A stretch of 64,000 nucleotides of DNA. Origin: Mytilus galloprovincialis. Its lineage: Eukaryota > Mollusca > Bivalvia > Mytilida > Mytilidae. The translations under genes and the position numbers were made by a program. The notes below the pieces were generated by a model, which worked only from the letters and a program-made list of their open reading frames with translations, did not search any database and was not told the DNA's origin. Shown in pieces: positions 12,881-52,720 of this stretch. Within the stretch, counting starts at the first letter, position 1, and every line of letters begins with the position of its first letter. The stretch is taken from positions 49,968,872 through 50,032,871 of the forward strand of contig NC_134844.1 of the NCBI RefSeq assembly GCF_965363235.1, given 5' to 3'.

Positions 12881-12925
12881 AAATAGGAATACTATCATCA
12901 TCATGATTAGCAAGGAATAACGAAA

Positions 12926-21841: not shown

Positions 21842-21931
21842 TCACTTTGTCATAAAGAACCACACACCAGCAAACACAGATGAAATCAGAAATAATATTC
21901 CGAGTAGATTAATGGCAACCTTTCTTCTAGT
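21842..21931 (-). CDS. Exon 8: C-terminal transmembrane tail and stop
   Basis: A TTTCCATTTCAG acceptor is followed in phase 0 by TRRKVAINLLG, a run of about 20 hydrophobic residues ending near VFAGVWFF, then MTK and TGA. The basic TRRK before the helix and the three-residue tail after it fit a C-tail anchor, with the bulk of the protein in the cytosol. The exon is too short to have been called as an open frame and was found by reading beyond the donor of exon 7. Confidence 0.72.
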   Translation of the reverse strand, partial: TRRKVAINLLGILFLISSVFAGVWFFMTK

Positions 21932-24900
21932 CTGAAATGGAAAGCAGATATAATTTGAATTTTAAAGAAATTTATCAATGTATTTATAAAACTTTTCAGA
22001 ATAAAAGCATAAAAAATTATCAAGTATACCACACGTATAATGTATTAAACCATTCGTTCGTTTACACAAGACTCACCAGTGATGCTCGAATAAAACAAAT
22101 TGGAAAGTCAAATCAAATGCGAATTTGAACAGCGTTGAAACTCGAATAAAAAACTACAATCATGGCAAGAAAGTAACCACTTGATAATATGTAGGACATT
22201 TCAGTATTGTTTTCAACACTAGTGTAATTTTAAGTTTAAGTTTTAAAAAAGAAACTAAATCTGATATAAACATGTTTGTTTAATTTTTGTTCAATAGGTG
22301 ATTTTTTTTCGTTGAATAAATAACAAAGGTTAACTTTAAATCACCAGCCTAGTAGTCAGCACTTGTGTGTTGACATGATATATCATTGATATGTTCATAA
22401 TTTCGCTACATTTACTGTTTATATCAAGATATACTATTCGAAGTTCTTACTACCACCAGGTAAAGATTACAATTGTCTAAGCCTTTTTTTTTGTACAACC
22501 TTTCGGAATTTATGCGTTATAAAGCTCTTTATTTTCTTTTTTGATTTGCACTGTTCTTATTCCAGCGTCACCGATGAGTCTTCTGAAGACGAAGCACGAG
22601 TGTTGCATAGTCAGCACTTTTTATATGACATTAAAATGTTAATTTTTCTGTAAATTCAGCTATAAAAGGCCTCGAAATGATAAAGGTAAAACAATTCAAA
22701 CGGGAAAACTAACGGCATTTTTTATGTACAAAAAGGTTAACGAGAAACAAAAGTTATATACATCAACAAACGACATCCACTGAAATACAAGCTCCTCACT
22801 TACGACAGGTACTTCCATAATGTTGCGGGTTCAAACTACAAATGTAGGTAATATGTGTGACATCACCGAAAGAGAAATACGACGGGAAACATTAGTGGAA
22901 TATAAACTACTGTCCCACCCTAAGCGCCTGCGTTCATCAATATATCTTGGATTTGTTCTTGGTGTTCTAAATTAAGTATAATGTGAAGAATTTATGAGGC
23001 GTTTGTAATTAGTCTTGTTGTTTTCTGTTTTCTTTTTGGTTTTGCATTGCGCCGTTTGTATATACACACCTTTATTTTTCTGTATATAATGCATAGATAA
23101 CATTCATTAATAACCAAACTCACCTTTGATTTTGTTCTATCTTCAATCTTAATCAAGTTGTCTCCAATTGTTTGTTTACGTTTTTGTTGGACACACCTCT
23201 CCCTCATTTCAACAGAAATTTTCCGTGCATCGTTGAGATCTTCTAAATTGCCAAATTTCAAGCAAAAATGAATATATTGTTGATAAAGATTGAAATGGTA
23301 TTGAAATGGTATTGGGTAGTCAGAAGTATACCACCAAATGTTGAGTTCAAATGCTTTTTTGTACTTTTGTTTAGCTTGATCAATGTTGTTTTTCGTGGGA
23401 AAGAGGAGATATGTTTCAGCAATTTCAAGGTAAATCATCATACAGATTAGCCAATCTTCTCTCATAGTGATAGCTATTTCATTTAAGGTTTGTGCTTGCA
23501 AAATAGCTTTTTCAAGGCACTTTTCACTTTTTCCTTCCCGCCATTCAATAAAGCAGCACTTTAAAAGAGCGCGATTGATCATGCATTTATGATAGAGAGT
23601 AAATTTTGGCGCCATTTTTAAAGCACCATAGGTGTAGAACAAAGTTGATGAACCCTCTCCTTGCATTTCCTTTAGCATTTGTATGATCTTGTGCAGATTT
23701 TTAGTTGAAACAGTTCTCTCTGATCTCAAAAATCTAATAATGCCATCGCGATGTTCTACTAAAGCAGCAATAGGTAGGTAGTTTTTATAACTTTTTTTGA
23801 AATAACACTGCAACCGAACTGCGAGATTATACGCAAATTGACTGTCAGTCAGACTATCCATTTTTGTTTCATTGTTGCCATATTCAGTGACCATGCTATT
23901 TGTCGATTCCATCCACCACTTATTTTTACTACTTTCATGCATAATACTTATAAGTAAATCAACAAGGAAAGTTTCCTTGATACTTTTAAAAGGAGCAAAT
24001 ATTTTTTCCATATTTCCCCTTTTTTTAGTTGTGTATGAAGTCAATTTGAAGTGTTTTATTTCATTCTTGTTTATCTCCCCATTAGCATATTTTTCAAAGA
24101 GTTCCATTTCTCTTGAACTCCTGAATTTGTTTGCTAAAAATGTTTGCACAAAATCTTTTGTCATTTTTTGTTCACTTTCTTTTACTAATCTATGAAATAT
24201 ATCCTCTGTATCCTTTTGTAGAACGGAACAACCCTTTAGATAAAGCACGGGATCTGTGGAAGTGAATGGATAAACAGAAATTTTTGGTTGAAATTTTATT
24301 AAATCGAAAATAATATTTTTGGCTCGTTCTAGGTAGTCATATGATGATAATTCTGCATTTCCATACATCCGAAATGTTACTCCTATTGCACAACATAAAA
24401 AACTTTTATATATTCTCATTTGAAAAACATTTGTATCTAAATAAGAATGAAACTTTTCTAAGAGAAGAGTAGCATGACTTAAGTAGCAGACATTTCGTTT
24501 GATAGATTCAATTAAACGAAGATCTAAATCCATAATGAAACAGTAGTGTTTCAAAAGATAAGATACTTCTTGTTTAATTTGTTCTTTTGTTTTATTTTTT
24601 CTAATCGCCAAACAAGTCATACTATGTATCGATATACTCCGTCGCTCACCATAACCCTTAACTACTGCAACAGAATACTTCCTTAAAGTAATAATAAGGT
24701 TATTTATTTCAGCTTCTTTTTCTCCTTCTGATAAAAAATCTGGTAGTAAACTTTTAAGAAGCATCACCGATATGTTATCGTACACAAAATACGGTGCATA
24801 GCTCAGCACACACTGTACCTTTTTTGTGAGATCATTTTGTAGTCTTTGAAGTATTAAATTAAACGGCTGAAAAACCAAGTCAGCTCCTAAAATATGTTCG

Positions 24901-27900
24901 GATATTTCATCATTTTCTAAAAGATGTATATAATTTTCTATAGATGTTTGGGTATTTTCTATATAAGTAGCTGCAAAAGAAAGCGCTAACGGCAAACAAT
25001 CTAGTTTTTTGGCTAATGTTGTGACGTCCTCTCTGCTATATTCTGCAAACTCAAAGAACGAAAAAGCTTCAGTTTCCGTCATTCTATTCATTTTCATGCC
25101 GTACTTTCTGTATTGAGTGATCATAAATCTTTTGTTTGACGTACCTATGACATAAATGTTTTTTGTTTGAATTACTTTTTTCAATATCAAATCTATAACG
25201 GGTTCTTCTGGTGACTCAATATCATCTAATATAATAAGGTGATTCGTGTCGTTCATGTCAGACATTCTGACAAAGACCGTTTTGATCATATCATGGAATG
25301 GCGAATAAATACCCCTTTCCTTGCACATTTCTCCACTATCGATTTTGAGATTTGTCATCAAAATAGATAATGACATAGTCATACTTTGCATAGAACTACA
25401 TGGAATTCGCCAGATTGTAGCAGAGGGAAACGTTGCAGAAAATTGATTGGCATATGCAAATGAGGACTGTGACTTTCCTGAACCATTTGGACCTAAAATA
25501 TTAAAGATTTATTATAACACAAAAATGTTCTCACTGATTGTAACATTTTTTTTAATTCTCCTAGTTTATTAAAAAACAATTAAGGAAAAGAACACGTATA
25601 AGAAATCTATATTTTTATCTTATATCATCAATATCGTAGTTAATTTTTATGCCGTTATTTGTTTTAGGTACATCGAAGAAGTGGCGGTCCTGCTTTTGCG
25701 TCCAAATATTTTATCACGTAAATAGACCATATACATTGTTGAACAAATGTCGGATAAAAATGTTTGCCCACTTTTTCATAACTGTAATACATGGAAAATA
25801 TCCTCTTTTGTAAATTGTGCTGAAAAATTACTTAGTCCCCAGTTTAAAAATTCGGGACAGATTCGTCAAACAATTTCAGAATTGCTGATGCACAGGTTCA
25901 ACATGTGCCCAATCTATCCATGACGTGTCAGGTACATGGTGTTAAAGCTAACGGAAGTGTTGAAAAACATATAAGTTGATAATGACTAAATATCAAGGAC
26001 AAAAAATAATTGGGACAATTCCTTTAAACCATTCTATGATAGCAGCTCACCAACTTCAACGTGAATGCAATTTTTCTGTGAAGTTTTATCGCTCTAGATT
26101 GAAAATTGTAAGAGGAGTTGATTACCTAAAACTGGTACCATCCTTTGAAAAATCTGCTTAGGAAAAGTATGGAAATATGTGGGAAAATCCTTTACAAATT
26201 TTATAAACACAGCGGCACAACTTGAACGTTTGTGCAATCTTATTTCAGAGATCTGGGTTGATAATTGAATAATTGATTATACAAAAAATTTAGACTGTCT
26301 AACAATTCGCCCAACATTTCAAACTATAGACCGGTTTTGGACTTCGTCACCCCGACATAAAAATGTCACAAATATTGACATAATAGATATATAAATATAT
26401 TGATAAACCTAGTTTGTGCTTTGTTTTGTTATGAGACGTAAGACTCTTGTGGGCTCTTTAAAAGGATTTAAAATGCACATACAAATGTGGATAAATAATC
26501 TCAGGCAATGGAACTGTGCAATTCAGTGTAAAATCAGTCGAGTAGATCAGTCTTCCTGTTGGAAAATCAGTAGCTTTTCACCTTCTGAAATAGCGCCATT
26601 TTTATTTGCAACTAAAACTCCCATTTAAATGTTATTCAATAATGAATTCAGCGTTATTATCAACTCTCTGGTGTGTATCATTGCTATGTAGAATTTCGTT
26701 TATTTCTTTTTCCATTTTGTTATGAAGGGCTAAGATAATTACCTTCGACAAGGACTATGCGGTTCTTCTCAATTTTTTCAACCATTTCCCGAAACTGAAT
26801 AGTTTCCTTGAAATTATCAACGACTTTCATACATGTTATGTCAAAATGTTCTAAAATAAAAAAATAAAAAAATAAAACTACAAATTAATGCTTAACTTCG
26901 AAAAAGGTTTTTCTTTCATCAATTATAACATATACCATTAGAAACAATTATAGGTCAATAACACTTTTAACATAAACATTTAATTAAAATTTCAAAAATT
27001 TAAACGATTTTAATGTTGAGTTATTGAAAGTATTTTTATGGCTGTACATAAAAATAAGTTACGGATATTCATATAGTTCTTTAATATTTAGAATCAAACT
27101 AGAGTATTACAAAAATGAGTCGACATAGATGATATAGACGTTTGCTAGCATCCCAATCTTATTCAGTACTTGCTTGAATACCAATGCTTGTTCTGCGAGT
27201 AAAGCCGTAAGCATTTAGTGTTTTACTCTCCGGAAGTTTTAGATGCGATCAGCATACTACTCTACAACATTATGGACTTTAGGAAAATAGATCCGGATCG
27301 GAAACGATCACTGTACGAAGTTTGCATTCAGTTGTAACATAATGCCAACGTTATTAACAAAAAAGTTTGGGCTTGGAATCACAGTGTTGTTTACGATTAT
27401 GATCAAACTGTTCTTATTCTTATTTTTCAGTTGTTACTTTCATAAACCCATAGCTAGTGCAAGAACAGCAACGAATTAAAAATTCAACAACTTACAAATT
27501 CCTACAGATTACAAAAGTGCATGAATCAGATTAAAAAGAACTACGTGCAGTGTCCTAGATAAAAAAATATATATATAAAAAGTAAAATCACAAAAATACT
27601 GAACTCAGAGGAAAATCAATTCGGAAAGTCCATAATCACATGGCAAAATCAAATAACAAAATGCATCAAAAACGAATGGACAAGAACTGTCATATTCCTG
27701 ACTTGGTACAGGCATTTTCAAATGTAGAAAATGGTGGATTGAACCTGGTTTTATAGCTAGCTAAATATTTCCTACATCCACAAAAATTGTTACCCACAAA
27801 AATAAATGAAACGCAGTTATTGATCTGAATAAATGTTCCGACCGTGTACATTTGTCCCGTTAAGGTATGTTACAACTAATGCGAAAACAGGCAGGAAGAA

Positions 27901-30900
27901 CATATACGTTGTCCGTTTTTCTTCGACTTATGGGTTTAATTATCCCTCTAGTATACATGTATATGTATGCATGTAACTCAGTGGTTGTCATTCCTTCCTT
28001 TCTATATTTATTTTTTTTTTCTTTTCGACATTGAAATAGACGTTTGCTTTCTCGTTTGAAATATTACTTGGTCATGTCGTGGCCTTTTATGGTTTAGAAT
28101 GCGGTATGGATTTTGTTGATTATTGAAGGCAATACGGTAACTAATCGTTACTTACATTTATGTCACATGGTCTTTGGCATTAATATTCTCGTTTTCAATT
28201 TAAATCTTCTTATAATCATTTTATTCAAAAATATGTAACAAAATTAAGGTTGTGAAGTTTTTGGTGGGATATGCAAATCATTCTATCAAGACAATTTATA
28301 ATCATAGCTGAATCAGGTTTTTTTCGAGAGCAATCATTTCATAAAAACATTGATGAATGTTCTCAGTAATGAAGCGATGAAAGCCGATCAAGTAAGTTTA
28401 AATGAACACACTAACATGCAATGTTCCGCAAATAATTATAAAAACAACATGACTTATTTCAAGAATCTTCGTATTGTGATGGCTTTAAATCTTCCCTCTA
28501 TGTTTTTTTATTCAGAAGACTAAAATCCGAGAATTTAAGAACCAACGACAAACAAATTCTGCTCAAACCACGAAAATTGATACCCACATATATAAGTACT
28601 TCCACAGTAAGTTCTTTGATTGGTGTCACAAAGTGTATATACTTATACTTATACATCCATGGATATGCATGGCTTCCTTTGTAAATGAATATCAATTTGT
28701 GTCTTTTTTAACTGCATATCATAACAAAGCAACTGCAATCTAATTAAAATTAAATTCATGTAATGAAAACGTTCTGATATTCGCGACAAATCAGAACGGG
28801 AGCAATTAATGGGTTTTTTTTTATTTCGGTTTTATCTTTTTGTTTTAGTCTTTGAGATAGTTTTGTGTAAATTCTGTTTCATATGATTTTATATAATATT
28901 AATTTTAGGGGTGAACGAGTTGTTCCTATTGGACTAGCGACTATCTGTTTAAATATATGTAGGACTCAAATCTATGGCGGGTTCCAAATCTATGGCAGAT
29001 TCCTAATCTATGGCAAATGTGACGTTGCAAACGCCAAACAACTCAAATCTATGGCAGATTTTTGTTTTCTCCATATCAATGGCAGATCTTTAAATTGCGT
29101 CACAATGGAATAACGCAATATTACATGGTAGCTGCCACAAACGATTGCGAAGCTCATAGATTTGAACACGATTCCAGATGAAGGTATTATCCTGGACAAC
29201 AATTTGCGGATGATTTAAAGGAAATGTGACCTATTATTCGGAAGAGGGTCAAAATGTGCTGTATCAGCCAAAACCCGCGATGTACAAGCTAGGGCACCAC
29301 TTTTTTCAGAACCGGATTATAAAAAAAGGAGTTATAGTAAATGTTTTACTATCTGCAGCTGGCAAAGTTTATAAAGTGAAAGATAAAATTAACGGATATC
29401 TATTTGATTTAAATTGTCAACAAATAAAAATGGAGTATTAACGATAAAATAAGTTTTAGTTGAAAATTCAAACTGTTAATTTTTATTTTTTTTAACTTTT
29501 TTTTGTTAAGGGACTTACTAGTTGGTCTAAGGAATGGGTAAAATATAGGTACCATGATTATATATATTTTTTTAATTTTTACGGGGCACAACATTTCAAG
29601 CCTGAAGTCTGTTTTACAAAAAAAAATTGGTTACCATCACGATTTGGTTGACCATCATTTCACAAATGTTTATAGACATGTCGTACATTTCCACTGGTTT
29701 CAGACAAGTCATTGATCATATATGTACTGTATTGTTTTCCATTAGCTCAAAATTTGCCATAGATTTGGAAACAACAAAAATCCGCCATAGATTAGGAAAA
29801 TACAAAACTTGCCATAGATTAGGATTGTAAAAATCTGCCATAGATTTGGGATGGCATGACGTCACATTTGCCATAGATTAGGAATCTGCCATAGATTTGG
29901 AACCACCATAGATTTGAATCCTACATATATATCTTCCGAAAATGTAAACAAAATCAAGCATTTTTGATGATATCACCTTAAGTGTATTTGTTTCTGCGGT
30001 TCTTCACAAAATAATATTTTTTCGTGACCTTAATCAAGGTATCTACAATGCCCATTTATGTAGAAAAGCATGACCTAACCACATGCATATTAAGTTACCA
30101 GTATCGAAAGGATGTAAGACCATGATAATTGTTCATAATATGTAACAGTATACATGTAGCAATACATATTCAGATATGTCAATGTCAGTACTGATAAAGA
30201 CACAAATTATGCTTTGTTTCTTTAAACTACGAAAAAAATTAAAGATAAAATATGAGTGAGGGCATTCATTCAATCAGCTTCCATTTTACCAATTACTTCA
30301 TTTGCATTTTATCAAAACTTTTATTGTTAACGACTACGTACGTAAATTGTAATTTAGATTTTCTCTGATCATTTTCATTTTTCTCCTATCTATAATTGGA
30401 AAAAGGAGGGGAATATTTGTAAATACTATCACAGTAAACATACCTTCCTTTGATATATAATCCACATCTGTCGTTGAATCTGTTTGAAAATCATCAACAG
30501 AAACAAAACGTTGTATAGCAGTGTACGATGATGTTTGAATGAATTGTTTTACATGACCCCGGTACTCATCGTCTGGTCCAATATTGTTGTCCTCCATTAT
30601 CTTTATCAAGTCACAACCTGTTGTTATCTTGTCATAATCACTTTTTGATACTGTTGACTTCACGTCTATTATAACTTTCTGAACTGATGCTACGAAATAA
30701 AGGCAATTAAATAATAAAATTGAAAACGCAAATGGGGAATATGCCAAAGAGACAAGAACCCGACCAAAGAGCAGATAACAGCCGAAGGTCACCAATGGGT
30801 CTTCAACGCAGCGAGAAAATCCCGCACCCGGAGGTGGGCCTCAGCTGGCCCCTAAATAAAAATGTGTACTAGTTCAGTGAAAATTGACGTAATACTAAAC

Positions 30901-33900
30901 TCTAAAACATATAAATGAACTAAAATTAAAAAAAACCATACAAGACTAACAAAGGCCAGAGGCTCCTGACTTGGGACAGGCGCAAAAATGCGGCGGGGTA
31001 AAACATGCTTTGAGAGATCTCAGCCCTCCCCCTATACCTCTAGCCAATGTAGAATAAAGAAACACACAATACGCAGAGTAAAACTCAGTTTAAAAGAATT
31101 CCGAGTCCGATGTCAGAATAGGTAACAAAAGAAACTAAGCAAAATGACAATGATACATAAATTAACAAAGGACTACTGGCAGTTACTAACATGCCAGCTC
31201 CATCTTTGTAATTGTAATGCTAAATGAAATCCAATTTTGAATGCATATCTTGAGTTTAGTTCTTGCATCACCCATCCTTACCAATGAATTCTTAAACTGA
31301 TGACAATATGGTATAGCTTTTTAAATGTACTAAATTTTCGGTATCAACCGTAAGAGTAAACTATTAAATTGATAATCATTCGGAAATTTAAAAAAAAAAC
31401 ACGGTATATGCACTTCAACTAGATTTTCGAAAGTTCATAGTTCAATAAACAAATGGTGTTAATCTGCATGCAAAACATGAAATAAATTTCAAACCTTTAT
31501 TCTTTTCTACTACAGAGATTTTGAATACTATTATATCGGCATCAACAGTTTCGTTTTTGCTCCTTTTTTTCTATTTGTTACTTGTACAAAAAAGAGCAAA
31601 ACAACCATTGTATTAGAAACATACAGTTTCGCAAATAAAGGTTTGAAGCGTACATTTGTCCGACGAACGTGTCTTTCAACAACTAAAACAGACGAAAAGG
31701 CTTTTTTTATAGCAACAAATGACATCTCTCAAAATGTTGAACATCAAACGTGTATCAGTGAAAAGTTAGAAACATTTTTTTTTATTGAAAAAGCTACGGC
31801 TGTATATTTAAACAGTTTTATTTGTAACAAGATTGATAGTTCATTTTGAACAATCCACAAAGAACTACACAAAAACTAAAGATTGAACAATTCAGGATAA
31901 AAGGGGAGTAACTGGAGATTTGATTATTAGTAATTTCAGCCGTTTTATGATATCAAATGAATAAAGAATATTTTTAAATTATATAAAACCTATCATATCC
32001 TACCTAACTTACCCTATGTCTGACTTTAAAGTTAATAATGATATAAGGCTTTGTTTGATATGATTGTTTAAGATTCATACACAATATACCTTAGTAATTT
32101 TGTGTCAGATTATACATTTATAAATAAAAAATATTCATCTTAAGTTTGTAGTGTAAAAAATGTAAGGAAGCTACCGATGGATTGATACCGTAATCGTAAT
32201 CATATTAACTCCATACACATATATTGGCTGGAGTATTGCAACATAGAAATTGAAACTTTACACTGAAAAAAGTACCTTGAGTGTCAAACACGATTATCAT
32301 AATAATCAAATGACCTGAAATATATTTACATATAAGCCAACAAAGGTTCAGGACGTGACCACACATAGTAGTCCAAAAGGAGCTTGCAAATTAGGGTTCC
32401 TTGAGGGTTAATAACGCTTAATTATGAAGTCCGTAACTGAATGATGGAGTTGAGTCAACAATACAATCTTGTCACCATTCATCTTTACTAAATTATTTCT
32501 TCGTGTTTCGTCACCTCCTTATGGGCTATATTGTATGAACAATACATGTTTCTGCATTTTTACTCTGAAAGTGAAAAACGTTTTATTCTGATGAATGAAG
32601 GATTTCTGAATGGTAAAAGTTCTGTCGCATCTATAATTCAGTGTGTCATACGAAAAAATATATTTACCTTTGATTTGCTTGTTTTTATGTATTCTCTTTC
32701 TTGCACAGATTCCTTTAATTAAAGCATGCAAATGGTGAATGAATTATTTTTTATTTGATAATCATATAGTAAATATTTAGGAAGAGTATGTCTCTCGCCA
32801 GAAACAACAAAAAGAAGGTATATACCAATCAATGAAAAAGCAAACCACAAATGTAGAACACATAGTCAAATAATTTTAAACAAAGTACAGTCGTTGTACA
32901 TTCAATTGTTTCGGAATAAACCTGTTTATATGCAATTCCTTTACCACAAACCTGTCGGTTTTATTGACATTTGCAACAAAACAAAACAGAGCAAAGCAAA
33001 TGGAAAACGATGTTCAGCATCTTAAATCCATAAATGTTATTTCAAATATTACACAATTACCTATTCGTAATAGATGTCTATCCTTTTCTGTTACTTCTGT
33101 TTGCATGATTTTTTCAGCCAGATCTTCATGAACACAGTCATCCTTTAGTGAATCAAGAAAGTTCTGGTATCCGTCTTTAAATTTGAACATAAGTGTACGT
33201 AAAAGTTTCCTATTTGTTTCTCGTGGTGTACGACAGGCTTTTAGTTCCTCCATGTGTTCAGGACTCAAAACATCAAACTCTACAAGCTTATCTATGGGTT
33301 CTATACTATCAAGATCGTCAACTATAATTTTGTAACATTTTTGCAAACGAACGGAATCATCCTTGATATCTGCAATGAAGAAATGAAGATAACTAATAAA
33401 ATTAAATATCAAAAACACCCTCATGTATTACAAACGTCGACTTCCAAATCCTTAAAATCAAAATAACATTACAACAAAACTCTTAACTTTTCCTACATCT
33501 TAATGTTTTTGTCTTCTTTATAACCATTGGATGTCTTTTGAGATGTTGGGTTATTCTTTTATTATATTATTACCTATGAATATAATTACGTGTACTAAAT
33601 TACATCGCTAGGCTACTTGAATATTTCTGAATTCTACATAATCCTTACGGGCACTCAACAGTGAAATACAGAACTGTCGCAAAATATATTCAATAGATAT
33701 GACAACTGCTGTTTTTTTAAGTGTGTTAAAAAATTAAAACAAAACGCTTTTCTGGATTTACCTTCATCGGGAACGCTCAAATCAGAATATTTGTTTATAA
33801 TCCAGTTTTATCCTGATTGTGTATATGTAAATATTAATGCCTATGAATGTAACTTTAACACGCTGATTAGTGTTATAAAAATAGTTATTTTTTTTACATT

Positions 33901-36900: not shown

Positions 36901-39900
36901 CATTAATATACATACTGAAGTCGTCATTATTGAGAGCCAAAATATCATCCAAATATCTAAAAGTATTATTAAATTTGTTTATCAGATGTTGTTTCGATGG
37001 GTCTTTGCTTATTTTTGTCATAAATTGTAACTCATAACAATACAAAAACAGGTCCGCAATAAGTGGTGCACAGTTAGTCCCCATTGGAATTCCGATAATC
37101 TGACGATATACGGAATCCTCAAAGCGAACAAAAATGTTATCTAGTAAAAAATCAAGGGCATATATAGTATCAAAGCATGTCCAATTAACATAGTTTTTTT
37201 GTTTATTGCTACTAAAAAATGACCTAAAAGAGTTTGAACATATATATTCACATTCTGATTTTTTGAATGCCCATTTAATTAGGTGTGTGAATTTTTTCTT
37301 AATGAGAATGTGAGGCAATGTGGTATACAGGGTAGAAAAATCAAAACTTTGAACAGATTCAAAATCACCAATATAAGCATGCAATTTATCAAGTACTTCC
37401 AACGAGTTCTTGACACTCTAAAAGTAATTTATTCCACTATTTTCGAAGGCCTTATTTGAACAATTTATTATCAGGTTTTTAATTGTACCAAGTGTGCTGG
37501 TAAGAAACTACTACGACAATAAAGATCAGCTGCAGCAACCCATGTCCAATTTCAGCGAGGATGTGTCAAAATGTTTCTCTACAATGGTTTTAGACCCGAT
37601 TTTTAGGCCTAAAAAACATTTCCTAACACTTCCAATCATACCGTCCTTATAAAAAATATATAAAAGTCGTGGTAATCATACCCTGGATCTTTTCATCCCA
37701 TAGCTCACTATTTGCACAGCTCCATCGATCGGTCTCTCTCTCTTTGCCCAGACGGTGGTCAGCTGTTTGTTTAGTCTTTCACATCCCCAAGTGCGGATAG
37801 TTTTCCCTTTCTAGCACAAGGTAATAATTTTTGTGTCAACATCTTTAATGTCTTTGACAATCCAGGGTGAGTCCTCACCTACTTCTCGCCATTTGAGAGT
37901 TTCCTCGTCAGTATTTTCCAAAATTTCTACATGTTGCGCCATATTCTCTCTCTGATCAGACATATTTGTAATCTTACAATCCATTGTGTTAATTCTGTCT
38001 GTGTTTTTTTTGTGTGTTTTCTTTCTTCCACAAAGATACATTTTCCCTCGACCCCATCCCCCCTACTTTTTCCCCTTCAACCCCAACCATCCACGTTTTC
38101 CCCTCACAACCTCGTCAACGAGCGTGCAAGATTTTCTGATATTTAGGTCCGGTCCCAGCAGAAATTCCCCTCAAAATGTTCACGCGTATTTCGATATTTA
38201 AGTCCTTCGTTACTCCGCGGAACATATTAACTATATACTTTTTGTTCCTCTCTTTATAAGCTTTCGAATGAGGTATAAGGTAGATCTTAAATTAAGGGCT
38301 GAAGGGTCCAAGCAGTCCATTCCATTATTCAAAATATCCATTTCATTATTCAAAATAGACTATTTTTTTTATTTTCACGCGTATTTTGGCATTTGGGTCC
38401 TCTGTAACCCCTCTAATGGTCATTGCGGCACATATTGTTTATTCTCAGTTTATTCCTCTATTAATAAGCTTTGATTTGGTGTAAAAATCTTTCCTTAATT
38501 AGGATCTAACGGGTTGCACCAGTCCATTCCATTATTCAAAATAAGCTATTTTTCAATGGTGAAGTGTACTAGTATTCCGATATTTAAGACCTTGATTACT
38601 CCTCTAATATGCGTTGCGGAACATTTTGACTATAAACATTTTGTTCCTCTCTTAATAGGCTTTTAAATGAGGTATACAATATATCTGTTATTAGGGGTTA
38701 AAGGGTCACATCAGTCTATTTCATTTTTTTTAAAACATCTATTTCATTATTCAAAATTGGCGATTTCTTAATTTTTAAGCGTAATTTGACATTTAGGTCC
38801 TCCGTAACCCCTTTAATGGTCATTGCGGCACATATTGTTTATTCTCAGTTTATTCTTCTTTCAATAAGCGTTGATTTGGTGTATACATTTTTCCTTAATT
38901 AGGATCCAACGGGTTGCAACAGTCCATTCCATTATTCAAAATAAGCTATTTTTCAATGGTGAAGCGTATTCCGATATTTAAGATCTTCGTTACATCTCTA
39001 GATCTAATATGCGTTGCGGAACATTTTGACTATAAACATTTTGTTCCTCTCTTAAAAGGGTTTTAAATGAGGTATAAAGTATCTCTGTAATTAGGGGCTA
39101 AAGGGTCACATTAGTCCATTTCATTATTAAAAATATTCTTTCATTATTCAAAATTGGCTATATTTTCTTCAATTTCATGGGTATTTTGGCATTTAGGTCC
39201 TCCGAAACCCCTCTAATTGTCATTGCGGCACATATTGTTAATTCTAAGTTTATTCTTCTATCAATAAGCGTTAACTTGGTGTATATGTGTTTCCTTTACA
39301 TAGGAGCTGAAGGGTTACACCAGTTTATTCCATTATTCAAAATAAGCTATTTCTTAATGTTAACGCGTAATTCAAAATTTACGTTCTTCGTAACTCCTCT
39401 AATATGCGCTGCGGAACATATTGACTTGATACCTTTTGTTCCTCTCTTAATAAGCTTTCGAATGAGGTATACATTTTATCTGTAATTAGGGGCAAAAGGG
39501 TCACATCAGTCCATTCCATTATTCAAAATTGGCTATTTCTTAATTTTGACGCGTATTTAGGAATTTAGGTCCTCTGTAACCCCTGTAATTGTCATTGCGG
39601 CACATATTGTTTATTCTCAGTTTATTCCTCTATCAACAAGCTTTGATTTGATGTATAAATCTTTCCTTAATTAGGATCTAACGGGTTGCACCAGTCCATT
39701 CCATTATTCAAAATAAGCTATTTCTTTATGGTGAAGCGTATTCCGATATTTAAGTCCTTCGTTACTCCTCTTCTATGCGTTGCGGAACATTTTGACTATA
39801 TATATTTTGTGCCTCTATTTATAAGTTTTCGAATGAGGTATAAAGTATATCTGTAGTTAGGGGCTAAAGGGTCACATAAGTTAATTTCATTATTCAAAAT

Positions 39901-42900
39901 ATTCATTTCATTATTCAAAATTGGCTATTTCTTAATTTTCACGCGTATTTTGGCATTTAAGTCCTACGAAACCCTTGTAATGGTCATTGCGGCACATATT
40001 GTTTATTTTCAGTTTATTCTTTAATCAATAAGCTTTGATTTGGTGTATAAATTTTTCCTTTACATAGGTGCTGAAGGGTTGCAGCAGTCCATTCCATTAT
40101 TAAAAATAAGCTATTTCTTATTGTTCACGCGTATTTCAATATTTCGGTCCTTCGTAACTCCTCTAATATGCGTTGCGGAACATATTGACCATATATCTAT
40201 TTTTAATCTCTTAATAAGCTTTCGAATGAGGTATAAGGTATGTCTGTAATTAGAGGCTGAATGGTCACAAAAGTGCATTTCATTATTCAAAATATCTATT
40301 TCATTATTCAAAATTGGTTATTTCTTAATTTTCACGCGTATTTGGCATTTAGGTCCTCCGTAACATCTCTAAAGGTCATTGCGGCACATATTGTGTATAC
40401 TCAGTTTATTCTGCTATCTGGGTTTATAAATATTTCCTAATTAGGGGTTGACGTGTTGCAGCAGCCATTCCGTTATTCAAAATAAGCTATTTTTTAATGT
40501 TAATTTCGATATTTATGTCCTTCGTTACTCCCTTAATATGCGTTGCGGAACATATAGCCTGCCTATATACCTTTTGTTTCTCTCTAAATAAGCTTTCGAC
40601 TGAGGTTTTATTTATATCTATAATTAGGAGTTGAAGGGTCAGAGAAGTCCATTCCATTATTCAAAATATCCATTTCATTATTCAAAATTGGCTATTTCTA
40701 AATTTTCACGCGTATTTTGGCATTTAGGTCCTCCGTAACACCTCTAATGGGCATTGCTGCACAATCGACTTATTGTTATTATAATCACAGGATGAAAAAT
40801 AACAAAGGTCCAGTGAAAATAAAAAAAAGACGACGTACATTATTTTAATTTCTATATATATGTTCTGGTATTCAGGTCGTCCAAACATTGAACCAAGGAA
40901 TTTCTGTTAAAAGTAGTTAGGAAAACCATCTAGTTTATCCTCCGAAACTAAATAAATAAATAAAATTATCAATCTAAAGGGTTTTTATTCTATTTTCTGA
41001 TATCAATTTAAATATTTGTTAGATAACACCAAAATGACGAATTTAGAAATACGGGATATAGCTATATTATAGTGTCACAGTCAATGTTTTTGTTTTTTTT
41101 ATTTCGCTATTCACCGCTTCAAGTTGAATAATGAAACATAAACTATTTCATTATTCATTATTTATTTTTAACATTGAATAGTGAATAGTGAACTATTTCA
41201 TTATTCATTATTGAATTTTGAATAAAGACTATGAATAATGGACGTACTTCAGCGCGGTTTCAGAAACTAGAGTCTCAACTTCATCCGCCAAAGTAGATCT
41301 TAGATGGATTTTGATATTTTGTTTGTGTCCAGTTTGCTCAAAAAGCTCACCTCGGATAAAAGTATTTATACATCTTTGGCTTTCAATTTTTTTTTTAGTT
41401 TCCTGATGGCGGATCTTTCAGAAAAAGCAGAAAATAATAAAAACATCGCACAGATTAAAAAATTTACTGAGTTTGCCTTGAATGTAAAACTTTTTACCTA
41501 CCATCTGAGTGTTTGACAGGTGGCAAATTTATTTCCTGTTCTACAAAGCCGTTTTTCTCCAATATCGACTGTATTTCTGTGTTTTTGACGTCTATTGATG
41601 CTTGCTGAAGTGGCGCTAATGAATTGTATGGTCTTTCAAATAATATGTCATAAAGTATACTATTCTTTTCAATTCTCGTATTGGCTTGCATAATATCTTC
41701 TCCATCATCGATGGTCAAAACGCAACTAGAAATAAGGTGGTCAACGATGCTCGGATCAAAATCTGTATGAAATATAATGTCGTTCAATATGTTGTAAATG
41801 CCATCCTTGCAGTCATCTAAAATATAATGTTAATCTACATATAACTGACTATATCAAAATACATTGCAAGTGTGAATTTAAAGTGTCTACAAACGACAGA
41901 TACTGTTACTGGGATGTACAATACCTCGTGATGTGTAAGACGTGTTTCCAATAAATGAATAAATAGGTGTTTACCTTTTTGTTGAGCTTATTTCTCAAAA
42001 CCGAGACATAGCGATTCTAGATTCTGTCGTCGTCGGCGTCGTCATCGATGATAGCGTCGGCGGATTCAACATTTAGGTTCAGACTATGGTTTAAACACCA
42101 ATTACTTTGCCAAACCTACATGGAGAGTTATGGAATCTGGACAGAATTTTCAAATTGATAATGACCAAAAGACAGTATTCAGAGCAAAAGTTTGAAAATA
42201 TCTATTTCTATTTTCCGTTCTTTACTGATATAAGGATTGAGTTTTTTTACAGTCAATATTAAGATTAGGTTTAAGGTTAAAGTTTTACAGTCATCAATAA
42301 CATTGTCAAACCTTCATTCTTATTGATGAAAGGAGTAGGTCCGGTAAGGGCCGATTATGGCCTCAAATTTCAAGTTCATCTGATGAAAGATTTTTGACAC
42401 TTTTTAAACACTTATTACAAGTGTCTATTTCAGTTGAATCAATAAGTTTATGTGAAAGATTTTTACTGATTTAGTCATTAAAAACGCTCCGATTCAAGCT
42501 TAAATATGAAAATTATATCAAATATGCCAAAAATGTCACTTTTCAGATGGTTTTGTCAAAAATGAAAGTGGCCGCATCCGTGTTCATCCTCAACCTTTAT
42601 ATATGTTATGTATTATCATCAAATATAACTTACATTTCAATATTAAGAATGAACACAAACCCAGCCACTTTCATTTAAGACGGAATCCGTCAAAAACTTA
42701 ACTAAAATGCTAAAATTGTGAAGATTTCAGTAATTTAGCATGAGTTAATGATGCTAGTTCCAGATATATGTGCATTGTTTTGTCAACAATAGCCCATCTT
42801 TATGTAGCAGAAGCATTCTACTTTCCAATGATAACTAACAATTTACATTTTAACAATTTTGTAAAACTACTATATTTTGGGGCCAAAAAGGGGTCTAACT

Positions 42901-45900: not shown

Positions 45901-48174
45901 CTTAAGGTCTTGAGTTCGAATCCCATTATATACACTGGATTTTTTCTACGTGAATTACGATAGATAGTCTTCTCCGTATAATTAATTAAGTTTTATAGTG
46001 GATTTGACATTCCCGCCAAAATGTTACAGAACAAAGGAAAGCATGCATAACAAAGAAACTCAAACTGGGGTGATCTGGTAGGGGTGATCCGGCTCAGATC
46101 ATCCCTGTTAGAACAAAGGAGCTGGGACGAAACGGTATTACAGTTCGTAGCGTTTGGTGTGAACACGGCCTAACATAGTATTAAATATCATTATTATCAT
46201 TTTATGGCATTTCTTTGTATTCATTTAAAAAATCAAATACCAAAAATAAGTGACATTGATTTGAAAAATTTCATAGCCTTTTGTATTTATGTTGAACATT
46301 ATTTCGCATTATACATACGTGCATGCCAGGGTGAATGAAATATGTAAAACTTGTATATTGTGTTTGACTTGTATGAACAGACGATGTTTTAAAACATAGT
46401 AGTTTAACCATTTCGAAACACTCAATATCGCTTAAGTTGTTAGATGGGTTCGTGCTACTTAGTCTTCATTTTTGTATTGTGTTTACAGACTGTGTTTGAG
46501 GGGACGAGATACTATTTGTTTTTCTCCGACATTGTCCCCTATGAATAAAATGCCTCTTATAATAATAAAATACAACAACAACAACAACAACAAAAACAAA
46601 AACAGTAACTAAAATAATGTTTTTAATTGAATGGGTCTTACCTTTTAACAATCCAACAGCATAACTATCTTCTAAAGTCCTTAAAAAAAATATATGACAA
46701 GTATAAGGTAAATGTTATTATAGTAAGATGTCATTGCCTCAAGAAATTTAAAGTGATACTGAAAGATAAAAACAAGTTTCATATGAATCCATCAATGACA
46801 TAATGTGTGTATGGGAAAATAAAATTGTTTCTTGTAATTATAAACAAGCGGAATTTACTGAAGTCAACCTCGAATCCTGTCCAATTGACATTAGGGAGCT
46901 ACCATTTGATTTTTATGGGGGGGGGGCTAGGATGAAATTTGAAAAAAATAGGCAGGACAGGAGTTTTGAGTAAAAAAAAAGGCAGGATGAGACACTTGCA
47001 AAAAAAAAAAGTCAGGACGACAATTTAGGTAAAAAAAAGTCAGGATAAACTAAAAAAAAAAAAGGCAGGACCGAACAGAGTGAAAAATAAAAAGGCAGGA
47101 CAGAGATTACAGCTAAAAAAAAATGCAGGACAAAATTTTTCATCCTAGCCCCCCCATAAAAATCAAATGGTAGCTCCCTAGTCCCTTTACATAGAGTATT
47201 ATTCTAAGTATATCTAATGGATAATTTAGACACGAGGACGTGTTCAATGATGACAAAGTACTGTTTCTATGAAACACACAAAATATATTGATTTATTCTT
47301 ACATATGCAGATTGGTTTACAGCCGAATGCAGAATTATAAGGAAGAACGAATGAAATCGACACTACATACGTTTTACTGTCAAAATCACTAATTGGTTGA
47401 CCAATACGATAAGATATTAAATAGTGGTAAAAAGTTAAAAAAAAAAAATAACGAACTCCGAAGAAAATTCTATACGGAAAGTCAATAAGCAAATCGCAAA
47501 ATCAAAAGCTCAAACACATCAAAGGAATGGATAACAACTGTCATATTCCTAACTTGGTATATGGATTGTCTTATGTGAAAAATGGTGTATAAAACCTGGT
47601 ATTGATCTTACTTGTATGACAGTCGTATAAAACTCCATTATATTGACAACGATGTGTGAACAAAACAAACAGACATAATACGTGAAAATGCCCCCCTCCT
47701 TTTTCCCCCAGTAAAAAAAGGGTACACCAGTCAACATTGTGTTATAAAAAAAACATTGTGTTATAAACTACTGTCACCTTTTTTATGAATATTTATCTCA
47801 AACAGTATACTAAAATACTACAGGAAACAAAATCTACCATTCTTTGACAGCCGTTTTATTATTGATAGTAGTTGTCAGAGTTTTTACTGCTGTTGCCTTT
47901 ATTCATGCATGTGCACTTTTTATTTCTTCCTGAGGATGTTGATTTGCAAGTCATTACCGGTTTAACTAATCCATGTTTTTTATTATAAAAAAAATATTTC
48001 CCTTTAATGGTGTTGGCTTCATATCAATGCTTATAGGTACAATTTAAGAAAAAATATTATATAGAGATTGAGCTTACACGTTTCGAAAACGTTCGGCTTC
48101 TTTCTTTTGAGCTTTGTCATTTTTAACCACTTTTCCACGTCCCACTAGAAGTTGCGTCTGTTCCATCATCTCAT
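21842..48174 (-). CDS. CARD-CARD-DEDlike-NB-ARC-TPRlike-TM protein, 8-exon gene (Apaf-1/NOD-type STAND sensor)
   Basis: Proposed coding exons, in order of translation: 48174-48078, 46679-46642, 41816-41502, 33369-33061, 30689-30444, 26850-26743, 25492-23124, 21931-21842. All inner borders have AG acceptors and GT donors. Intron phases run 2,1,1,1,1,1,0 and the coding sum from ATG 48169 is 3567 nt, exactly 1189 codons with the stop. Residues: 1-43 charged N-terminus; about 45-130 CARD; about 155-240 CARD; about 255-320 DED-like death fold; about 350-670 NB-ARC with Walker A GPNGSGKS (370-377), Walker B LIILDD (455-460), a GTSNKR sensor (about 485) and CLPLAL (535-540); then a winged helix, a helical TPR-like region, and a TM helix at about 1167-1186. 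The family (Apaf-1, NOD, NLR) senses a signal, oligomerises on ATP and recruits caspases or adaptors through CARDs. The membrane tail suggests an organelle or plasma-membrane site. The ligand is unknown and further 5' exons are possible. The exon join is inferred from phase and domain order, not from transcripts. Confidence 0.72.
22660..22935 (+). repeat. Dispersed repeat family A, partial copy in intron 7
   Basis: CAGCTATAAAAGGCCTCGAA, CAATTCAAACGGGAAAACTA and CAAACGACATCCACTG match the middle and end of family A. Confidence 0.5.
23124..25492 (-). CDS. Exon 7: NB-ARC ATPase, winged helix and TPR-like helical region
   Basis: A 2369-nt exon. The open frame runs from the acceptor at 25493 past the first in-frame ATG (25391) to a stop at 22992. 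A strong AAG|GTGAGT donor after 23124 and the phase-0 match to exon 8 indicate splicing before that stop. Order: rest of the P-loop (PNGSGKSQ), Walker B LIILDD, IYVIGTSNKR, a hydrophobic CLPLALSF motif, a winged-helix region ending SISIHSMTCLAI (the MHD position, where HSM replaces MHD), then about 490 residues of amphipathic helices. The segment from about LYTYGALKMAPKFTLYHK to the end looks like two to four degenerate TPRs. No LRR or WD40 repeats are seen, unlike NLRs or Apaf-1. Confidence 0.87.
26743..26850 (-). CDS. Exon 6: lead-in to the NB-ARC P-loop
   Basis: A 108-nt exon with a TATTTTAG acceptor and a GTAATT donor. It ends IEKNRIVLVEG, the beta-strand that leads into a Walker A loop. 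The last base G joins GT of exon 7 to give the first glycine of GPNGSGKS. FKETIQFREMVEKI resembles the helix that precedes NB-ARC P-loops ('F.GR..el..l'). The split P-loop makes the junction between exons 6 and 7 very secure. Confidence 0.82.
27590..27770 (+). repeat. Dispersed repeat family B, copy 1
   Basis: GGAAAGTCCATAATCACATG, AACGAATGGACAAGAACTGT and CATTCCTGACTTGG-type words (here CATATTCCTGACTTGGTAC) match the copy at 47450-47640 in order. It lies in intron 5. Confidence 0.5.
28961..29928. mobile_element. Nonautonomous element with ATCTATGGC-repeat termini (about 0.97 kb)
   Basis: The left end and the reverse complement of the right end share about 65 bp built from repeats of AAATCTATGGCAGATTCC and related words. 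Roughly a dozen copies of ATCTATGGC/GCCATAGAT occur in 28961-29095 and 29750-29920, in opposite orientations at the two sides. Both ends can be read as flanked by TA, but the flanks are themselves ATATAT-like, so the exact border and duplication are uncertain. It lies in intron 5 of the CARD/NB-ARC gene. No transposase was found inside. Confidence 0.65.
30444..30689 (-). CDS. Exon 5: third death-fold exon, DED-like
   Basis: A 246-nt phase 1-1 exon with a TTCGTAG acceptor and a GTATGT donor. The 82 residues read as four or five helices: SVQKVIIDVKSTVSKSDY, then CDLIKIMEDNNIGPDDEY, HVKQFIQTSSYTAIQRFV and an acidic tail. The 'dLi..Le..ni.p.d......l..i' pattern resembles the C-terminal half of a death effector domain. 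It is short for a full DED (about 80) and lacks a clear RxDL motif, so it could be a divergent CARD or an unrelated helical linker. The 3' end of a Penelope-like tail repeat lies about 20 bp upstream of its acceptor. Confidence 0.62.
30705..31205 (-). mobile_element. Penelope-like 3' tail, solo copy inside intron 4
   Basis: The same tail sequence as at 7.56-8.11 kb and 20.0-20.5 kb, in the gene's own orientation. Its 3' end (read minus: TTTTCAATTTTATT) stops about 20 nt before the acceptor of exon 5 and so lies in the polypyrimidine/branch region. Confidence 0.65.
31210..33060. other. Intron 4 sequence without recognised elements
   Basis: Only short chance frames on both strands near 31.5-31.85 and 32.5-32.7 kb; none shows a family signature or splice support. 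Confidence 0.4.
33061..33369 (-). CDS. Exon 4: second CARD domain
   Basis: A 309-nt phase 1-1 exon with a TTGCAG acceptor and a GTAATT donor. The 103 residues match the CARD pattern well: LVEFDVLSPEHMEELKACR (helices 2-3), then NRKLLRTLMFKFKDGYQNF and FLDSLKDDCVHEDLAEKI, the classic 'LL..L......F...L....H..LA' layout. It is the clearer of the two CARDs. The two CARD exons differ strongly in sequence, so they are not a recent duplication. Confidence 0.8.
35082..35540 (+). pseudogene. Relic frame of unknown element protein, left arm
   Basis: The partner of the relic in the right arm. After MDFKITNISDQREN and EEILKWREVG, a second stretch (35301-35537) reads MGFERLNKQLTTVWAKRE and IVSYGIKKSRRTG. 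The right arm keeps the same segment in reverse near 37690-37790. No known domain is recognised; a DNA-binding protein of the element is one possibility. Confidence 0.4.
35985..37440 (-). mobile_element. Penelope-like retroelement copy B, nested in a 7-kb inverted-repeat element
   Basis: The longest RT frame (37402-36305, 365 residues) covers motif A (FDFSTLYTTLPH), IGIPMGTNCAPL, FRYLDDILALNN (catalytic DD present), the thumb and a C-terminal region to LIRSLHRN. It is close to copy A over its whole shared length. Its 3' tail is cut near 35985, and the 5' end near 37440 passes into sequence of the host element. It is therefore truncated at both ends. It lies between the two inverted arms of the element at 34221-41258, inside an intron of the CARD/NB-ARC gene. 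Confidence 0.75.
37811..38041 (-). pseudogene. Relic frame of unknown element protein, right arm
   Basis: Minus-strand sequence MDCKITNMSDQREN, then EETLKWREVGEDSPWI and DIKDVDTKI. The left arm at about 35082-35280 (+) carries the matching MDFKITNISDQREN and EEILKWREVG. I do not recognise the family. Its presence in both inverted arms shows that the arms are an inverted duplication including coding DNA. Both copies are interrupted. Confidence 0.4.
38170..40765. repeat. Dimeric satellite, about 395-bp period, in the right arm of the 7-kb element
   Basis: Two related half-units alternate. One contains GCGTTGCGGAACAT (near 38605, 39011, 39408, 39777, 40168, 40544); the other contains CATTGCGGCACATATTG (near 38421, 38821, 39223, 39593, 39987, 40378). 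Both halves end in TCCATTCCATTATTCAAAAT-like sequence. About six and a half dimers are present. The left arm has only one partial unit (about 34735-34880). Confidence 0.85.
41502..41816 (-). CDS. Exon 3: first CARD domain
   Basis: A 315-nt phase 1-1 exon with a TTTTAG acceptor and a GTAGGT donor. It encodes about 105 residues with the helical spacing of a caspase recruitment domain: an initial helix around KDGIYNILNDI, then IVDHLISSCVLTIDDGEDIM, a central ILYDILFER helix and IQSILEKNGF at the end. CARDs pair with other CARDs in adaptors or caspases. It lies upstream of the second CARD exon, across an 8.1-kb intron filled by a transposon. Confidence 0.72.
41990..44100. other. Old repeat-like DNA in intron 2 without genes
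   Basis: Words such as GTCAAACCTTCAT, TTTGGACAGAAGCTT and TGACCAAAAGACAGTAT recur (42110-42190, 42300, 42910-42960, 43250-43300), showing degenerate internal repetition around the MITE at 42337. The 43.3-44.1 kb part is richer in GC (TCGGTCGAATCGGGAC-like) and different in style; nothing recognisable. Confidence 0.4.
42337..42918. mobile_element. MITE-like element with AGTAGGTyCrGT ends
   Basis: The left AGTAGGTCCGGTAAGGGCC and the reverse complement of the right AGTAGGTTCAGTTAGACCCC form imperfect inverted ends. The flanks on both sides belong to one older repeat (ACCTTCATT... and TTGGACAGAAGCTTG), matching an intact piece near 43250-43300, which shows an insertion into it. No frame inside. 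Confidence 0.45.
44600..44810 (+). repeat. SINE-like repeat with (CAAT)n tail
   Basis: GCATGAAAAAATTGCCTCTC, CCAGACGTTTATCAACCGAC and a tail AATAAATCAATCAATCA form a unit that I recall as widespread in molluscs. No protein frame. The family name is uncertain. Confidence 0.45.
45351..45458. repeat. Hairpin element 2 (108 bp)
   Basis: The arm AATAGTTATCCCAC, then GTGTGTCAGTGT and AGATCA, is matched in reverse at 45410-45458. The loop contains GGCCGGAGGCC. About 45 bp per arm with a few mismatches. It lies in intron 2 of the CARD/NB-ARC gene. Confidence 0.75.
45600..45815 (+). repeat. Region with repeated ACTCGCCCCACTT words
   Basis: CAACTCGCCCCACTT occurs near 45620 and 45790, with further ATCGCC and CTCGCC variants between. 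Short diverged tandem-like repeat of unknown nature. Confidence 0.4.
45862..45944 (+). tRNA. tRNA-like sequence, probably a pseudogene or SINE head
   Basis: TGGTGTAGTGG fits a pol III A box and GAGTTCGAATCC a near-consensus B box, about 45 bp apart. The sequence ends CACTGGATTTTTT, with a pol III terminator. CCAGT at the start can pair with ACTGG at the end, but the T stem has mismatches and I cannot place a clear anticodon. It is therefore probably not a working tRNA. Confidence 0.35.
46572..46592. repeat. (ACA)n microsatellite
   Basis: About seven AAC units just downstream (minus sense) of micro-exon 2. Confidence 0.7.
46642..46679 (-). CDS. Exon 2 (38-nt micro-exon) of the CARD/NB-ARC gene
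   Basis: The 38-nt exon lies between a T-rich TTAAG acceptor and a GTAAGA donor. It takes the two overhanging bases from exon 1, reads VTLEDSYAVGLLK and leaves one base for exon 3. The fit to both phases (2 in, 1 out) is the main support; a stretch this short could match by chance. Confidence 0.5.
46894..47178. mobile_element. 285-bp MITE with TA duplication and G-rich terminal repeat
   Basis: GGGAGCTACCATTTGATTTT opens the element and its reverse complement closes it; TA flanks both ends (46892-46893, 47179-47180). The inverted match runs on through a run of G and CTAGGATGAAA. The interior is a ladder of about six A-tract plus GGCAGGAC units. It lies in intron 1 of the CARD/NB-ARC gene. Confidence 0.72.
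47450..47640 (+). repeat. Dispersed repeat family B, copy 2
   Basis: CGAACTCCGAAGAAAATTCT, GGAAAGTCAATAAGCAAATC and CTGTCATATTCCTAACTTGG parallel the copy at 27590-27770. It lies in intron 1. Confidence 0.5.
48078..48174 (-). CDS. Exon 1 of the CARD/NB-ARC gene: charged N-terminus with candidate start
   Basis: Read on the minus strand, a long T-tract and CAG precede the exon, and it ends at a GTAAGC donor. Two adjacent ATG codons lie near its 5' end (48169 and 48166); the second has A at -3 and G at +4, a good animal start context. The peptide begins MMEQTQLLVGRGKVV and is lysine-rich. I do not recognise a domain. Because an acceptor precedes the ATGs, at least one more upstream exon exists, either 5' UTR or coding. 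Confidence 0.5.
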
Positions 48175-49715: not shown

Positions 49716-50090
49716 TATAACCACACAACACAAAATCAAATGTCAGTTATCATGTCCCTTTAAAAGCATAGAATATGCTGAATTTTTCGTTTCCGTTCTC
49801 TTAAATAAGTTTGACTCAATCAAATATTATAAACCTTATACGCAATGCTTATTACTCCATAACACAGACCTATCAAATTTGATATTGGGTGGCGTCACTT
49901 TTCATGAGTTATTTATAATTAGACGTAAGAATGTGTGGTACGAGTACCAATGATACAAATGTCAACACGGAGCCTTGAGATAGGAAACATGCTAAAGCTT
50001 ATGGACGTCAAGTTGGTTACGTATTCCTTATTCCTTATTCGTTACTTGTTACTTATTCCTTATTCGTTACTTATTCCTTATTCCTTTCCT

Positions 50091-51060
50091 AAGAACACAT
50101 TGTTACCACCAGAGACATGAACACAATTGAAAATCCTTTTCTAAAAGATGCAACGTATAAGAAACGTATTAAAAGCGAATAAAGAACAAATAAGTAACAG
50201 GGTATTAACCTAGCGCTGGAACGGGTACATACGCGCTAATGGGTTATTTCATCTCTAAGAACACATTGTTACCACCAGAGACATGAACACAATTGAAAAT
50301 CGATTTATTTCAATGTGCAACGTATACCTCGCGTATTAAAAGCGAATAAGGAACGAATAAGTAACAGGGTATTATCCGAGCGCTGGAACGGGAACATACG
50401 CGCTAATAGGGTTATTTCATCTCTAAGAACACATTGTTACCATGAGAGACATGAACACAATTGAAAAACATTTTCTAAAAGGTGTAACGTATAACAAACG
50501 TATTATAAGCGAATAAGTAACGAATAAGTAACAGGGTATTAACCGAGCGCTGGAACGGGTACATACGCGCTTATAGGGTTATTTCATCTCTAAGAACACA
50601 TTGTTACCACCAGAGACATGAGCACAATTGAAAATCGATTTATTTCAATGTGCAACGTATACCTCGCGTATCAAAAGCGAATAAGGAACGAATAAGTAAC
50701 AGTGTATCATCCGAGCGCTGGAACGGGTACATACGCACTAATAGGGTTGTTTCATCTCTAAGAACACATTGTTACCACCAGAGACATGAACACAATTGAA
50801 AATCCTTTTCTAAAAGGTGCAACGTATAACAAACGTATTATAAGCGAATAAGTAACGAATAAGTAACAGGGTATTTACCAAGCGCTGGAACGGGTACATT
50901 CGCGCTAATAGGGTTATATCACCTCTGAGAATCCAACTCTACCACCAGAGACAAGAAAACAATTGAAAATCATTTTTTAAAAGGTGCAACGTATAATACA
51001 CGTATTAAGTGACTAATGGAACGAATTAAAAAAGGTATTAGTCTAGCTCCGAAACGATGA
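50091..51060 (+). repeat. Tandem array, 167-168 bp period, six units, alternating types
   Basis: AAGAACACATTGTTACCA starts units at 50091, 50257, 50425, 50592 and 50760; a diverged sixth starts near 50928. Units 1, 3 and 5 carry TTTTCTAAAAGrTG; units 2 and 4 carry CGATTTATTTCAATGTG and CCTCGCGTAT. This makes an AB higher-order repeat of about 335 bp. Confidence 0.85.
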
Positions 51061-52480: not shown

Positions 52481-52484
52481 AAAA

Positions 52485-52720
52485 TTCAGAATGAAAATGT
52501 GGAATGTGTTAAAGAGACAGTAACATGACAAAAGAGCAGAAAGCAGTTGAAGGCCACCAATGGGTCTTCAACAAAGCGAGAAAATCCCTTGCCCGGAGGC
52601 GGGCTTCAGATGGCCCCTAAACAAAATGTGTACTAGTTCAAACTCCAAAACATAAAACTGGACTTACAATTAAAAACATACAAGACTAACAAAAACCAGA
52701 GACTTCTGACTTAACGTCAA
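52485..52720 (-). mobile_element. Penelope-like 3' tail, short solo copy
   Basis: The region from GAAAATGTGGAATGTG to the ACATACAAGACTAACAAA block matches the outer 240 bp of the tail described at 7.56-8.11 kb, more diverged. Confidence 0.5.

Follow-up and report, generated by a model that had tools for sequence, protein, structure and literature searches.

A candidate DED-STAND receptor gene with an apparently borrowed tandem CARD in Mytilus galloprovincialis

STAND proteins oligomerise through nucleotide exchange, which clusters their N-terminal death folds. Apaf-1 and CED-4 have a CARD-NB-ARC arrangement, whereas MAVS is a tail-anchored CARD signalling protein that is not known to have an NTPase. 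The candidate protein analyzed here is encoded in a 64,000-nt stretch of Mytilus galloprovincialis DNA (hereafter, the window; contig NC_134844.1 of assembly GCF_965363235.1). It resembles Apaf-1 and CED-4 in that a CARD precedes an NB-ARC-type STAND switch, but differs from both in having two CARDs, a partial DED, and a predicted C-terminal membrane helix. Neither the C-terminal WD40 repeats of Apaf-1 nor the NACHT and LRR domains of NLR proteins (NACHT-LRR) were matched by Pfam in the window protein or in fragments of its family. MAVS provides an analogy for what CARD signalling from a tail-anchored protein might look like.

Two groups of proteins described elsewhere share other parts of the design. 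The profile of bacterial FxSxx AP-ATPases with TPRs (NF040586; accessible part of PMC7159879) matches the NTPase and the region following it in 13 of 14 members of the window family. However, the score of the window protein is 63 bits compared to an equivalog cut-off of 300, no TPR was detected in the window family, and the death folds and membrane tail lie outside of the matched stretch. Placozoan NB-ARC proteins, which carry CARD or death-like domains and WD40 or TPR, likewise combine a death fold and NB-ARC without LRR, but neither a membrane tail nor a CARD-CARD-DED order is mentioned in the accessible part of that paper (PMC6321704). Within the same mussel genome, CARD-CARD-nSTAND3 receptors have the same CARD pair in the same order, with phase-1 borders where these are readable; the window gene differs from them in having no above-cut-off nSTAND3 domain and no ankyrins. 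A CARD-CARD-DED-STAND-membrane protein was not encountered in the accessible parts of a mainly open-access literature (PMC8195603, PMC6321704, PMC7159879, PMC7831173, PMC2575513, PMC11508797, and PMC8260672).

Exon structure of the candidate gene

The window contains no N bases and was compared to its own genome assembly (1.38 Gb in 331 contigs). Eight minus-strand exons with AG/GT borders and agreeing phases (Table 1) were found where the first-pass annotation had placed them. Joined, they run from an ATG at 48169 to a stop codon at 21842 and give 3567 nt, a length divisible by three as that annotation had claimed, and 1188 amino acids with no internal stop. The joined sequence also confirms a P-loop split across the exon 6/exon 7 junction. 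Only the proposed start at 48174 had to be moved: because the ATG AGA at this position runs directly into TGA, reading has to begin at 48169. The 30-aa sequence of exon 1 matched itself alone in the whole assembly. Scanning the DNA ahead of eight related CARD exons (1.5 kb each at seven and 2.6 kb at one) for single ATG start exons, rather than for pairs of the exon 1 + exon 2 type, gave candidates that were short and did not resemble one another.

Table 1 Features of the candidate gene and adjoining repeats in the window.
Feature	Position	Strand	Basis or remark
Exon 1 (proposed, unverified start exon)	48078..48169	-	Splice borders and open frame; ATG 48169; acceptor AG just before 48174
Exon 2 (proposed, unverified), 38 nt	46642..46679	-	Splice borders and phase only
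Exon 3, first CARD, both borders in phase 1	41502..41816	-	Pfam CARD 0.0041; genome relatives
Exon 4, second CARD, phase-1 donor (TAG, then GTAATT)	33061..33369	-	Pfam CARD 1.1e-9; genome relatives
Exon 5, DED from helix 2 onward	30444..30689	-	Profile of six paralogous DED exons
Exon 6, linker reaching the P-loop start	26743..26850	-	Counterparts in paralogs
Exon 7, STAND NTPase with winged-helix region and a long, helical C-terminal part	23124..25492	-	NCBIfam NF040586; genome relatives
Exon 8, predicted C-terminal membrane helix and stop	21842..21931	-	Hydropathy; comparable paralog exons
Repeat-bounded element of ~7 kb between exons 3 and 4	34255..41225		Inverted repeats I1, I2, I7, I11, I13
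Dispersed repeat D7	30716..30861		Ends 26 nt before exon 5; second copy 52481-52626

The STAND body and its paralogs

Exon 7 matched NCBIfam NF040586 (FxSxx_TPR, a bacterial AP-ATPase/TPR model) over residues 2–314 (E = 1.9e-17). Walker A (GPNGSGKS) and Walker B (LIILDD) motifs are present in the window protein. GLPL and MHD are motif names of NB-ARC/AP-ATPase-type STAND NTPases, and in an alignment inspected by eye, P167 of the GLPL-like CLPLALS and H289 at the MHD-like position are invariant in all 14 rows. The NB-ARC domain of the first-pass annotation finds support in the NF040586 match and the motifs but not in Pfam NB-ARC, which is absent from the window protein and was detected in 2 of the 14 family members, and the NF040586 score itself is below cut-off. 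Exon 7 alone matched no Pfam family at 0.1, and the gene was not among the matches listed for a Pfam NB-ARC search of the assembly. Profile search of the PDB gave a plant NB-ARC protein as the best match (E = 0.23), PDB sequence searches returned nothing significant, and a single-sequence AlphaFold2 model of exon 7 (mean pLDDT 39.6) was unusable for fold comparison. TPR-like helices, which had also been proposed, gained no support from Pfam: none of seven C-terminal fragments of the exon 7 family had a Pfam TPR match. A STAND-type switch fronted by death folds is supported at the level of sequence.

To describe the family, exon 7 was searched in the assembly, giving 20 rows that consist of itself, 16 other large matches, and three fragments. 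Upstream DNA was read at six of these relatives (C14, C8, C2, C10, C13d, and C13a). All six have a DED exon upstream, recognized by Pfam in C14 (E = 1.2e-8; 35.5 bits, cut-off 35.9), by tblastn in C8, C2, C10, and C13d, and by eye in C13a. A linker exon like exon 6 was found in five (C14, C8, C2, and C10 by tblastn, C13a by eye) and was not seen in C13d. An ATG exon that encodes DED helix 1 and ends in phase 1 lies ~350–1950 nt further upstream in five (C8, C14, C2, C13d, and C13a); none was seen in the 1.76 kb read upstream of C10. Judging from these gene structures, the usual front end in the exon 7 family is a DED opened by its own ATG exon. The window gene shares the order of DED, linker, and NTPase exon with the family, and differs in that no ATG exon encoding DED helix 1 was found in the window. 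In the tree of the family, the window copy groups with C14 as its sister (support 94/96, just under the 95 mark), and C10 belongs to the same clade as the window copy, C14, and C8. The family also includes a tandem cluster of six relatives at C13:45.19-45.39 Mb (L013 and L016-L020). The aligned C13 copies (L013, L016, L017, and L018) have GTWKS at Walker A and no DD in Walker B, and may therefore be inactive partners or decoys.

The C-terminus of exon 8 had been described as a membrane anchor, and a single helix at the very end of the protein is probable, as predicted from hydropathy (mean 2.35 over 19 residues). Membrane-helix exons entered in phase 0 also follow the exon 7 counterparts of C14 (3.1, plus a second, weaker candidate) and C8 (3.08). 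Tail exons were thus found in three of the seven loci scanned, with none within ~1.4 kb at the other four and none over ~4.9 kb at C13d by the criteria of that scan; laxer criteria yielded weak tail candidates only, in C13d, C2, and C10. Control points passed a strict test (≤45 residues, hydropathy ≥2.3, a cut set once the window value was known) in 14 of 207 cases and a lax test in 96 of 207; taken alone, exon 8 is therefore weak evidence. In the clade formed by the window copy, C14, C8, and C10, three of the four lines are likely to carry a membrane tail.

The CARD exons and their possible junction with exon 5

Pfam CARD matched the full protein in two stretches (E = 2.6e-12), in agreement with the tandem CARD of the first-pass annotation. 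On its own, exon 4 matches well, whereas exon 3 is below the Pfam cut-off but has many relatives in the genome. At least 45 other matches of exon 3 and at least 117 of exon 4 were found in the assembly, and among the 46 exon 3 matches listed (including that of the window), 32 are followed on the same strand, at a distance of at most 10 kb, by an exon 4-like CARD. In six of seven relatives, the first CARD can be read with both its acceptor and its donor in phase 1. PADLOC gave a single weak match, that of PDC-S05 to exon 3 (0.0066). Following the CARD pair downstream, we found an nSTAND3 domain (Pfam 6.8e-24) and ankyrins at C7:61.89, an nSTAND3 domain assigned by position at C10:78.07, and a P-loop open reading frame, identified as an ORF without a domain scan, at C12:43.26. 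The nSTAND3 exon of C7 can be entered in phase 1, and the exon 4 donor of the window is likewise in phase 1. By sequence, the two CARD exons of the window belong to a large CARD-CARD-nSTAND3 family, with ankyrins in one locus read, and the pair looks imported from it. A first pass over the genome gave 682 nSTAND3 candidates, and all 22 that were scored were above cut-off.

No nSTAND3 remnant accompanies the CARD pair in the window, where a 1064-residue nSTAND3-ankyrin query matched only a plus-strand ankyrin gene. The full protein reaches 16.9 bits with Pfam nSTAND3 (cut-off 27.2), over the P-loop part only; there is neither an above-cut-off nSTAND3 nor an ankyrin in the same gene. Downstream of the CARDs, exon 5 had been called a DED-like fold. 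Despite the lack of a Pfam match, this holds: with a profile built from six paralogous DED exons, exon 5 scored 16.6 bits (E = 2.4e-4) and ranked best among 578 window ORFs and 200 shuffles, the best shuffle reaching 4.7 bits. Exon 5 is weakly conserved, and plain searches found no relatives of it. The exon 4 donor and the exon 5 acceptor are both in phase 1. We consider it rather probable that the eight exons form one chimeric receptor gene, in which a DED-STAND body (exons 5–8) would be spliced to a tandem CARD front, mainly because the CARD pair has no nSTAND3, the DED has no helix-1 exon that could be recognised, and the phases match. The description of a STAND protein with death folds is therefore retained with a corrected front end, given that the usual state of the family is an ATG-begun DED and that the CARD pair looks imported.

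The alternative of two adjacent genes, one encoding CARD-CARD (exons 3–4, with or without exons 1–2) and ending after exon 4, the other a DED-STAND-membrane protein (exons 5–8) whose diverged start exon was missed, is less probable, but deserves real weight because four of the six exon 4 relatives checked (L030, L031, L033, and L034) read from the CARD into a stop with no strong donor; the CARD may therefore be C-terminal there. Window exon 4 itself stays open for 15 codons beyond its donor before reaching a stop. The paralogs fit two genes as well: all five with at least 4.4 kb of upstream DNA read begin at an ATG DED exon. No CARD was detected upstream of the six exon 7 relatives by tblastn with exons 3 and 4 at E < 0.05 (the lowest value was 0.057, in C10; the C14 stretch spans 37 kb), and among the matches listed, none of exons 3 and 4 was closer than ~1.7 Mb to another exon 7 relative, as read off the lists. 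Against this alternative, exon 4 retains a good phase-1 donor, like the internal CARD of L032; L035 also has a phase-1 donor, but its phase-2 donor is stronger. Also against it, no helix-1 exon was found in the 2.4 kb between exons 4 and 5, where no open segment scored above -1.2 with a matrix built from the five known helix-1 exons (6.2–20.2 for each when left out). Over the window, the best scores of this matrix were 5.9 on the minus strand (at 12.7 kb) and 8.7 on the plus strand; the matrix would overlook a start exon that had diverged strongly, because the lowest known score (6.2) is no better than the plus-strand background. A possible start for helix 1 near 32415 was rejected, as it had a weak donor and scored -3.6, which placed it at rank 40 of 1289.

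A possible front-end swap and its consequences

Under the favoured reading of a single chimeric gene, exons 5–8 would derive from a small STAND NTPase family whose members open with a DED, have a long helical region towards the C-terminus, and, in at least some cases, finish with a membrane helix. The DED start exon would have been lost or become unrecognisable in the window copy, with a tandem-CARD module of the CARD-CARD-nSTAND3 family supplying the front; if part of this gene, the CARDs are, by comparison of the paralogs, a derived feature acquired in the lineage of the window copy. This apparent pairing of a DED-STAND receptor with a borrowed tandem CARD is apparently the only one among the assembly matches listed. 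The tail may insert into and hold the protein on an intracellular membrane, where the protein would rest in a closed, nucleotide-bound form. The NTPase could then be opened by a cue acting on the helical region and would oligomerise and cluster the CARDs, and these might nucleate adaptors or caspases that carry a CARD; the front swap would thereby replace DED partners of the receptor by CARD partners. A more ambitious version is offered tentatively, as a proposal somewhat more apt to fail than to hold: a membrane-tailed DED-STAND family in which a single exon-shuffling event, tandem CARD for DED start, turned one member into a MAVS-like membrane CARD platform with an NTPase switch. If true, this would be a clear example of a receptor rewired through the swap of a phase-1 exon module, and one genome would show the donor family, the recipient family, and the unswapped state together. 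The known CARD platforms would gain one with a membrane-seated NTPase switch, and the swapped front could alter what an immune or cell-death switch triggers.

It is improbable that the locus is a decaying or unexpressed chimera, its exons still open when joined, its start lost, and the gene out of use. The window branch is about twice as long as that of its sister C14 (0.9 vs. 0.47), and decay would also suit the weak conservation of exon 5 and an exon 1 with no relatives. On the other hand, exon 7 is open over 789 codons with LPLA and the winged-helix histidine in place, Walker A and the DD of Walker B are kept, and the splice borders are intact. An in-frame stop was found in one of the 16 relatives (L020), thus decay is visible where it occurred. 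Least probable by far is an ordinary Apaf-1 or NOD-type gene, which would account for a CARD ahead of a STAND NTPase but not for the missing WD40, LRR, and NACHT matches or for an NTPase that matches the bacterial FxSxx_TPR model.

The window contains several other elements. The ends of the ~7-kb element consist of several inverted-repeat blocks that are 75–98% complementary, and it includes an ORF of 370 aa (36305-37417) that is reverse transcriptase-like by eye, with no Pfam match at 0.001. Diverged repeat arrays occupy 38204-40786 and 50074-51042, with spacings of ~186–400 nt and 167 nt, respectively. An intact 408-aa ORF on the plus strand (12911-14137) encodes ankyrin repeats and a SOCS box (Pfam Ank_2, 2e-49; SOCS_box, 3.8e-6), and a reverse transcriptase fragment (RVT_1, 4e-20) lies on the minus strand at 56217-56693.
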